A stretch of DNA of 32,982 nt from Pseudomonadota bacterium (GTDB taxonomy: Bacteria; Desulfobacterota; Desulfobulbia; Desulfobulbales; CALZHT01): contig JAHJJF010000105.1 in assembly GCA_018823135.1 (NCBI GenBank), positions 1 through 32,982 of the forward strand. Reading direction: 5' to 3'. This document shows positions 13,733-15,417 of the stretch, one piece after another (the first letter of the stretch is position 1; every line of letters starts with the position of its first letter). Position numbers and translations under genes: made by a program. The notes beneath the pieces were generated by a model. It saw only the letters and a list, made by a program, of their open reading frames with translations. It was not told the origin of the DNA and did not search any database.

Positions 13733-14734
13733 TCAGGAAACCAGGTCAAGAAGCTCCTGAAAAAGCCTTTCTTCCCGGGCGGCGCAATCGCGAATAACCT
13801 CGGCCATTGCCGGATAGGAATCCTCTTGCTGAGCGCGGCCTTTACAGTTTCTTGCGGCCTTGACCGCAAACTCACGCCAGCGGTCGCCGATTGCGGTCAT
13901 CTCCCTTGAAAGTTCGAGGAACCGGTCATTGCCCAAGACATCCGCCGCTTCCTGAAGGAATGCCGCATAGATGAAACGGAAACCAGCGCCGCCGGTGCCG
14001 ATTTCCTCCTGCATCCGCACCACTTGGCCAAGGGACAGGATGGCTTTTTCCATACCCAGTTTTTCAGGCCAGAGTTCAAGCCGCTTTGCAAGATAACGCA
14101 TGCCGGAAATCCCGATGATCGGTAAAGGGTATTTGAGCATCGCCTTTGAGGCTGCTTTGATCCCCAGTTTTACGGCGCGTGCCATATCAATTGTTTCAGG
14201 AACCTCAGTGAGATAATACATCTTACCCTTAGGAGGCAGCGGCCCTTTTGCAAAACGCGCCATCATCAGGTCATGGCGACCGCAGATAACCGGCTCAGGA
14301 AAAACCGGATCGCTGATCAGGTACTCACCGTCTTTGGTACCGAAGACCACCAGATTATGCATGTTGAAATGAAACCGGTAGGCGGGCGGAAAATACGGCA
14401 GCCACCAGGCGCCGGTCTGAAGCCCCACGGGAATACCATCAGCAATTTTTGCATCAAGGGCATCCATGGCCTTTTCAGGATTGCGGAATTTCTCTGTCTT
14501 GACTTTGACCCCCAGTGCCCTGGTGGCCCGGTTGAAAATCGCCCCGGTGGCTGATCTGAAAGTGGTGAGCGGCAGGTTGTTGAGTTTAATAAACGGGATA
14601 TAGCCAAAAAAAATTCCGGCACCGATGCCGAATGCCATGGCCTCGGAAACATTTATTCCATAATGGGATATGAGGTTTGCAGTCACACCGTTTTCACAAT
14701 GGGCGGACTGTCTGTGCGTAAAGTCTATTTTCAT
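13733..14734 (-). CDS. BtrH-like acyltransferase (BtrH_N family)
   Basis: Protein of 333 residues resembling BtrH, which in butirosin biosynthesis moves an acyl group from an ACP to an amine. The papain-like N-terminal domain shows the candidate catalytic Cys13 (AHCENGVTANLISHYG), the family pattern SEAMAFGIGAGIFFGY at 30-45, His126 in NMHNLVVFG and an Asp in ISDP at about 142. The remaining 180 residues are helical and resemble the usual C-terminal partner domain. With an ACP and ketosynthase in the same module, it probably transfers the acyl chain from ACP to an amine or hydroxyl acceptor. The acceptor is unknown. The gene is bounded by a palindromic element upstream and a terminator downstream. 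Confidence 0.82.
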   Translation of the reverse strand: MKIDFTHRQSAHCENGVTANLISHYGINVSEAMAFGIGAGIFFGYIPFIKLNNLPLTTFRSATGAIFNRATRALGVKVKTEKFRNPEKAMDALDAKIADGIPVGLQTGAWWLPYFPPAYRFHFNMHNLVVFGTKDGEYLISDPVFPEPVICGRHDLMMARFAKGPLPPKGKMYYLTEVPETIDMARAVKLGIKAASKAMLKYPLPIIGISGMRYLAKRLELWPEKLGMEKAILSLGQVVRMQEEIGTGGAGFRFIYAAFLQEAADVLGNDRFLELSREMTAIGDRWREFAVKAARNCKGRAQQEDSYPAMAEVIRDCAAREERLFQELLDLVS

Positions 14735-14757
14735 TTGTGACTCGAAATAATTTTTAA

Positions 14758-14940
14758 GCTGTTGTAAGAATGACCTTAAGGCGACTTGCGCCCGGCCCGA
14801 ACTTTGAAGCGATCAGGCCCAAAGGATGCGTGACAGGAAGTCACGCATCGACAAACCCGCAGGATGCGGGATTTTGTCGACCAGCGCAAAAGCACGGATC
14901 AACCGAAGCACCAACGCCGGGAAGGCATTCTTACAACAGC
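14758..14940. mobile_element. Candidate MITE-like structured element
   Basis: A perfect 15-bp inverted repeat (14758-14772 and 14926-14940) bounds a 183-base non-coding segment. Inside are two back-to-back hairpins. The first (14825-14849) has a perfect 10-bp stem and AGGAA loop. The second (14848-14880) has 8+5 paired bases, a two-base bulge and an AGGAT loop. No target duplication is evident and no transposase is present. It lies between the BtrH-like gene and the HTH-like gene. Confidence 0.55.
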
Positions 14941-14982
14941 AGGTATTTTGGAGCAATCTGCGAACACTTTATCGACATATTT

Positions 14983-15417
14983 TCATTTCATCTTTTTCTT
15001 TCTGCCCAGATATTCATCCGACATATTCGAAACGTCAATAAGTTCTTCCACGGTAATTTCAAAAACTGCCGCATACCTTGCAAGCATCGGCGGTTTCAGT
15101 TTCCTGAAAATCGACGGCCGCATATGCCGTTTGACGCGCCATTTGAACATGCCCACATAATTTGCCAGCAAGCCCATATCCATAAGATTCTTGGTCATAT
15201 GATAGGCCAGAGGACTCAACTCACCACCCCTGACCCGGCTGATAACATCGCGTAACTGATCGGCAATGATCTCCCAGGCCTGGGCGTTTGTAACATTCTT
15301 GGGCTCCCAGCCGGCACTGGGCACCAGTACATATCTGCCGTTTTCATCCACGGCATAGCAGACTTCCTTTAAGCCTTCGGCGATCCCCGTATCCTGCGGC
15401 ACTTCTTCCTTACGCAT
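14983..15417 (-). CDS. Uncharacterised protein with degenerate HTH-like C-terminus
   Basis: Small basic-ended protein of 144 residues that I do not recognise as a named family. The middle and C-terminus (LLANYVGMFKWRVKRHMRP, then a Leu/Ala-rich helix ending ITVEELIDVSNM) resemble a Cro/XRE helix-turn-helix, where the last helix typically ends in vs-eeL. The N-terminal part (GRYVLVPSAGWEPKNV) looks like a short beta domain. It could be a local regulator, which would make it the only regulator seen in the window, or a structural protein. Gene spacing (248 bases to the BtrH-like gene) leaves room for separate transcription. Confidence 0.7.
   Translation of the reverse strand: MRKEEVPQDTGIAEGLKEVCYAVDENGRYVLVPSAGWEPKNVTNAQAWEIIADQLRDVISRVRGGELSPLAYHMTKNLMDMGLLANYVGMFKWRVKRHMRPSIFRKLKPPMLARYAAVFEITVEELIDVSNMSDEYLGRKKKMK

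Follow-up and report, generated by a model that had tools for sequence, protein, structure and literature searches.

A MITE-like insertion between two operon genes of a Desulfobulbales bacterium with a double-hairpin core probably related to the candidate RNA family TwoAYGGAY

The window, by which we mean the whole stretch of 32,982 nucleotides that was analysed, carries on its minus strand a series of genes in the order radical-SAM/B12 protein, orf144, BtrH_N + DUF4872 protein (btrH) and ABC ATPase. Within this operon the upstream gene orf144 (14983-15417, minus strand), which is without a Pfam match, is separated from the downstream gene btrH (13733-14734, minus strand) by a structured element. 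At the centre of the element two hairpins adjoin each other in plus-strand orientation, hairpin 1 at 14825-14849 with the loop AGGAA (14835-14839) and hairpin 2 at 14850-14878 with the loop AGGAT (14861-14865), each loop being closed by a C-G pair. These paired GGA loops lie inside a long outer stem, which includes an inverted repeat with exact 15-bp arms at 14758-14772 and 14926-14940; when counted as imperfect the arms reach up to 26 nt and are 81% complementary. A sequence-only reading of this DNA had described these repeats and hairpins and had taken the 183-nt segment that they span (14758-14940) to be the element. The repeats and hairpins are real, and the segment folds far more stably than expected by chance, at -85.8 kcal/mol where shuffled sequences average -50.53 (z -7.49; none of the 200 shuffles folds as well). 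The ends, however, have to be moved, since the unit is 241 bp long and runs from 14737 to 14977 (plus strand, in the orientation with GGA loops), the 183-nt segment being its inner part only. In an alignment of the copies from the same genome the similarity continues past both 14758 and 14940 as far as TGTGACTCTTAAGAATTCTCAG-type ends, and the direct repeats that flank the element set its ends at about 14737 and 14977. The 241-bp element folds on both strands (z -7.04 for the plus strand and -7.86 for the minus strand). Its outer arms are complementary among copies; in the window copy the outermost 20 nt are paired only in part. The conserved core was located at 14784-14914 by one covariance model (R1) and at 14779-14922 by another (R2, E 2.2e-8). 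A 161-aa open reading frame (14770-15255, plus strand) spans part of the element and is antisense over orf144.

The element is flanked by an 11-bp direct repeat, TATTTTCATTT, at 14726-14736 and 14978-14988. Such agreement is rare by chance: when random 40-nt windows 242 nt apart were drawn, only 57 of 20,000 draws had even one 10-mer in common. The left copy, the position of which agrees with other copies of the element, carries the btrH ATG on the minus strand, and the right copy carries the orf144 stop codon, also on the minus strand. If the flanks are joined with a single repeat copy the result is GATGAAATGAAAATAGAC, in which the orf144 stop and the btrH start overlap in ATGA; both reading frames remain intact because duplication of the 10-11 bp target left each gene its own copy. 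The empty site was also sought in relatives. The gap between the stop of orf144 and the aligned start of btrH is 248 nt here, compared with -11 to +14 nt in 9 of the 10 relatives with both genes, where the junction is without the element. This comparison leaves out one partial locus in which the orf144 match is absent (L292), and two btrH matches are without a locus (G007 and the second in G016). The tenth relative, G006, has an unlike stretch of 178 nt at the junction, and this stretch contains a hairpin of its own, GCGAACAGCCG...CGGCTGTTCGC (L290). Since the overlap is restored on excision and the genes lie close together in 9 of the 10 relatives, the element is a MITE-like insertion within the operon, non-autonomous and situated at the overlapping ATGA stop/start of the two genes. 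Its likeliest consequence would be the loss of translational coupling between orf144 and btrH, together with a stable hairpin between them that would form when the copy is read through on its non-GGA strand.

It is clear that the window copy is not alone. Searched by BLAST at E<=0.01, its own genome (G000; 3.61 Mb in 157 contigs) yields 15 matches of 74-100% identity, and the family therefore has at least 15 copies there. Model R1, built from 12 cores of this genome with the fragments L012, L014 and L015 kept out of the alignment (A1), finds 16 places at E<=0.1. Thus a single copy without an empty site, the finding that would have spoken against the sequence-only reading, is not what was seen. 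Target-site duplications were then compared across copies. Direct repeats of 9 nt, with one mismatch or none, lie at the element boundary in 4 of 13 copies from the same genome (L014 and L015 again being left out), as against 3 of 156 mismatched pairs; a clear duplication is absent at the boundary in the other 9. In the related genome G048, where 8 of 48 matches were left out of the copy analysis, both ends could be recognised in 27 of the 40 copies examined and 13 were without a recognisable end. The ends are of the GGTTCATCCG type and the unit is mostly 264 bp. Here the 8-bp flanks are alike at 7 or more of 8 positions in 13 of the 27 two-ended copies, compared with 2.4% of mismatched pairs, and the flanks agree in 16-20 of the 27 copies at each position from -1 to -8 but in 5-8 of them from -9 to -12. 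Position -13 agrees again in 16 of 27, probably because the flanks are A-rich.

The proposal of a MITE or dispersed palindromic repeat is therefore supported by the multiple copies of a short, non-coding unit, the target-site duplications and the syntenic site without the element, and the element is almost certainly mobile. A transposase supplied in trans would most likely move it via its terminal repeats. The ends in its own genome, TGTGACTCTTA, resemble those of Tn5/IS50. No autonomous partner with matching ends was recognised among the 6 end-pattern matches in the 157-contig assembly, and in G048, where 8 of 32 end-pattern matches lie away from a known core, no recognisable transposon with matching ends was seen.

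Several copies depart from the common form. Copies that keep the ends or arms of the family yet lack both hairpins are found in the own genome, G153 and G048; in the own genome L146, L150 and L151 are short copies of roughly 60-90 bp with the same ends and no GGA hairpins. Another copy there (L007, 1497-1644) has a 17-nt insertion in the region of the hairpin-2 loop. In five G048 copies (L117, L121, L129, L135 and L141) the core, judged by eye, runs the opposite way to the outer arms, which looks like a flip of the middle part within its inverted repeats. At one site with both flanks syntenic between G048 (L108) and G153 (L269) the element is present in both genomes in opposite orientation relative to the flanks, and L269 has lost both of its hairpins.

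Model R1 matches 4 of 257 genomes of the class, namely the own genome and three from another family of the same order, in which it recovers copies at E down to 3.4e-13. The unit in these three relatives is a long hairpin, the outer stem of which varies in sequence among copies while its pairing is kept. Model R2 was built from 18 copies of the three related genomes (L054, which lacks hairpin 2, was kept out of alignment A2) and finds 48 places in G048, 57 in G153, 15 in G181 and 9 in the own genome, where its best E value is 2.8e-11. In a sample of the phylum R2 matches 6 of 395 genomes, the own genome included, and a DNA search of 58 genomes gave 5 with a match; besides the own genome these are four in which the matching stretches are short and weak (L016-L019). 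From the end types of the own genome and of G048 it follows that the ends attached to the core differ from one genome to another. When named genomes were scanned with a pattern, 92 stretches came up, often several in one genome; among the 80 listed are stretches from Shewanella, Aeromonas, Pseudomonas, Solimonas, Stenotrophomonas and Oceanospirillaceae. The core pattern of the own-genome type had 0 matches in genome contigs, a set that possibly does not include the own or very near genomes. An origin from a phage or plasmid was considered and set aside, as there was no BLAST match and, of four patterns run on viral contigs, three had no stretch and the fourth had one, L244.

Some of these distant copies have surroundings of their own. 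In G535 and G516 (L091, L093, L097 and L102) the copies are followed by a second conserved hairpin, TTTCTTTTGGGCG..CAAAAGAAA, and similar tails follow some gammaproteobacterial copies. A Turneriella MAG has a tandem array of GACAGGATGTC / GGCCATGGATGGCC hairpins between tRNA-Cys and tRNA-Leu (L221, 1397-1880) with GGA on the tRNA strand, which, if transcribed with the tRNAs, would form a multi-site sponge for CsrA. In Heliorestis a double hairpin lies immediately 5' of the 16S rRNA gene (L198, 2727-2854), and here the rRNA is read from the UCC strand as its sense strand, an orientation opposite to that of the tRNA and 5S cases L214, L221 and L223.

Comparison with Rfam connects the core to a candidate RNA family. 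Of 19 loci taken from the three related genomes, 16 match TwoAYGGAY (RF01731) at E<=5; L036 (44.5 bits), L041 (44.1) and one further copy in G153 (43.5) are above its gathering score of 43 bits, and most copies are below. Neither the window copy nor any of its 14 tested sister loci matches RF01731 at E<=5, and in the own genome there is no match at E<=0.1. The only Rfam match of the window copy is a weak one on the minus strand to Bacillaceae-1 (RF01690; E 0.15, 21.1 bits), and L002 has a match to the same family (E 4, 23.4 bits), both below the gathering score of 35 bits. According to Gardner and Eldai (PMC4333381), TwoAYGGAY and the reverse complement of Bacillaceae-1 are predicted to bind CsrA, and the match of the window copy falls on the strand that is consistent with this prediction. 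Weinberg et al. (PMC2864571) list TwoAYGGAY as a probable RNA that is probably not cis-regulatory. Both partners have changed in 12 of 39 base pairs among the own copies and in 17 of 48 among the relatives, counts which 0 of 500 shuffles equalled in either set and which can be inflated by relatedness and by arm-to-arm correction. The core is a stem around a pair of adjacent hairpins, each with an A(N)GGA(N) loop, and is homologous to cores that sit on other outer arms in other bacteria. It is very probably related to TwoAYGGAY through a chain of profiles, in which the window copy itself stays below RF01731. The suggestion of a structured RNA thus holds in so far as the core is related to a candidate RNA family. 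Taken jointly, we give the mobile element, the relation of its core to TwoAYGGAY and the history of its insertion a probability of about 0.8.

What the hairpins do is a separate question. One explanation, with a chance only a little short of even, is that this is a plain MITE with functionless internal hairpins, where the apparent conservation of loops and stems would come from shared descent and from template switching. Both palindrome arms would then change together because template switching during replication corrects one arm from the other. If, on the other hand, the GGA strand were held as RNA, G-U pairs should outnumber A-C in the stems. This excess is absent in the own copies (G-U in 11 and A-C in 14 stem columns) and is not found in G048 (24 vs 17 in the main subfamily, 34 vs 27 on 35 cores). 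It is also not significant in G181 (9 vs 7), Pseudomonas sp. 8Z (4 vs 5), Aeromonas (3 vs 3), Shewanella (7 vs 3) or Solimonas (15 vs 7). Against the plain MITE, G153 shows 25 vs 10 columns on 21 copies (p 0.017) and 22 vs 10 on 13 copies not chosen by top score (p 0.05), and yet its unpaired columns likewise show C>U over G>A, in 29 vs 14 cells. These G153 figures come from a repeat without truncated copies, L270, L274 and eight shorter-model copies removed by a length filter; an initial test (20 vs 2 columns on 16 top-scoring copies) was set aside as the choice of copies was biased. Support for a strand-specific constraint on pairing is therefore weak in G153, the Desulfofustis genome, and lacking among the copies of the own genome.

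Compared with the whole element, the loop A and GGA are less variable (p 0.004 in G048, 0.037 in G153 and 0.003 in the own genome); when the comparison is made with the remainder of the hairpin region they scarcely are (p 0.04, which is marginal, 0.36 and 0.21, respectively), as a plain MITE would have it. Across distant genomes, however, the stems differ whereas A(N)GGA(N) is mostly retained in both loops and on one and the same strand, which is less readily explained in that way. The existence of hairpin-less copies again favours the plain MITE, as does the mixed orientation of copies between tandem genes, with sense/antisense counts of 1/6 in the own genome, 8/6 in G048, 5/2 in G153 and 4/2 in G181 (genes were called with a home-made scorer, and the counts cover 12 own copies and 40 of 48, 16 of 57 and 6 of 15 copies in the others).

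Alternatively, the hairpins could serve as binding sites for CsrA, for which the consensus is ANGGAN. The own genome has one CsrA, which resembles solved CsrA chains. CsrA is present in 8 of 9 element-bearing genomes, the one in which it was not found being G181 (90% complete), and is equally common without the element, in 25 of 31 other genomes examined. It is plausible, at about even odds, that the core is able to bind CsrA as RNA; a copy whose GGA strand is transcribed might then accommodate a CsrA dimer on its paired loops and so work as a weak decoy. That the window copy acts through CsrA in its host is improbable. More tentatively, and at odds that we put well below even, TwoAYGGAY-type ‘RNAs’ could in general be mobile CsrA decoys, that is, transposable elements in which exchangeable terminal repeats flank a paired hairpin that binds CsrA, and which have spread it over several phyla. 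If so, CsrA sinks or binding sites would have been added repeatedly to host transcripts, some of them within tRNA operons.

It is very unlikely that the copies are instead dispersed genes for independent CsrA-sequestering small RNAs, spread by gene duplication and not by transposition; the relation to TwoAYGGAY and to the reverse complement of Bacillaceae-1, both predicted CsrA-binding sRNAs, would suit such genes, but the target-site duplications, the insertion at a gene junction, the copies without hairpins and the absence of a promoter-like site at the window copy do not. Most improbable is that the element forms a structured leader RNA acting in cis on the BtrH-like gene, as the sequence-only reading had also considered: the element does lie directly before btrH inside the operon and its coding strand is very stable (z -7.86), but it is a lineage-specific insertion, the site being empty in 9 of 10 relatives, its GGA loops are antisense to both orf144 and btrH, and other copies adjoin other genes in varied orientations, so that this candidate was rejected and a leader-RNA function at the btrH site is unlikely.

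The mobile element with its TwoAYGGAY-related core thus indicates that what has been taken for a regulatory RNA family may be spreading in the form of mobile DNA. The Rfam family in question, put forward as a small RNA that sequesters CsrA, has for a relative in the genomes studied an element that is present in many copies and flanked by target-site duplications. Copies of the family therefore have to be read differently, as many may be neutral. The element would also allow a direct test of the idea that CsrA-binding sites are distributed by transposons. In the open-licence literature, as far as titles and abstract beginnings for part of the matches go, no description of a TwoAYGGAY-related mobile element was found.

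Like other bacterial MITEs, the element is short, non-coding, multi-copy and intergenic, with inverted terminal repeats and a target-site duplication. It differs from them in that no parent insertion sequence was found for it and in that its internal core is common across phyla while the ends vary between genomes. With TwoAYGGAY (RF01731, clan CL00106) it has in common two adjoining GGA-loop hairpins inside a long, poorly conserved outer stem, and the copies of the Desulfofustis group reach or approach the score of that family; the window copy and its 14 sister loci differ in being unmatched and in having AGGAA/AGGAT in place of AYGGAY loops. The reverse complement of Bacillaceae-1 likewise has two GGA hairpins on the complement, although the match is far below the gathering score and the model is without the long enclosing stem. 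Finally, RNAs of the CsrB/RsmZ type have many loops where each copy of the element has two, and the element is mobile, with no promoter-like site at the window copy. They nevertheless share with it GGA in hairpin loops closed by C-G, and the CAGGA(N)G loop form of the element is that of the CsrB repeat, CAGGA(U,A,C)G.
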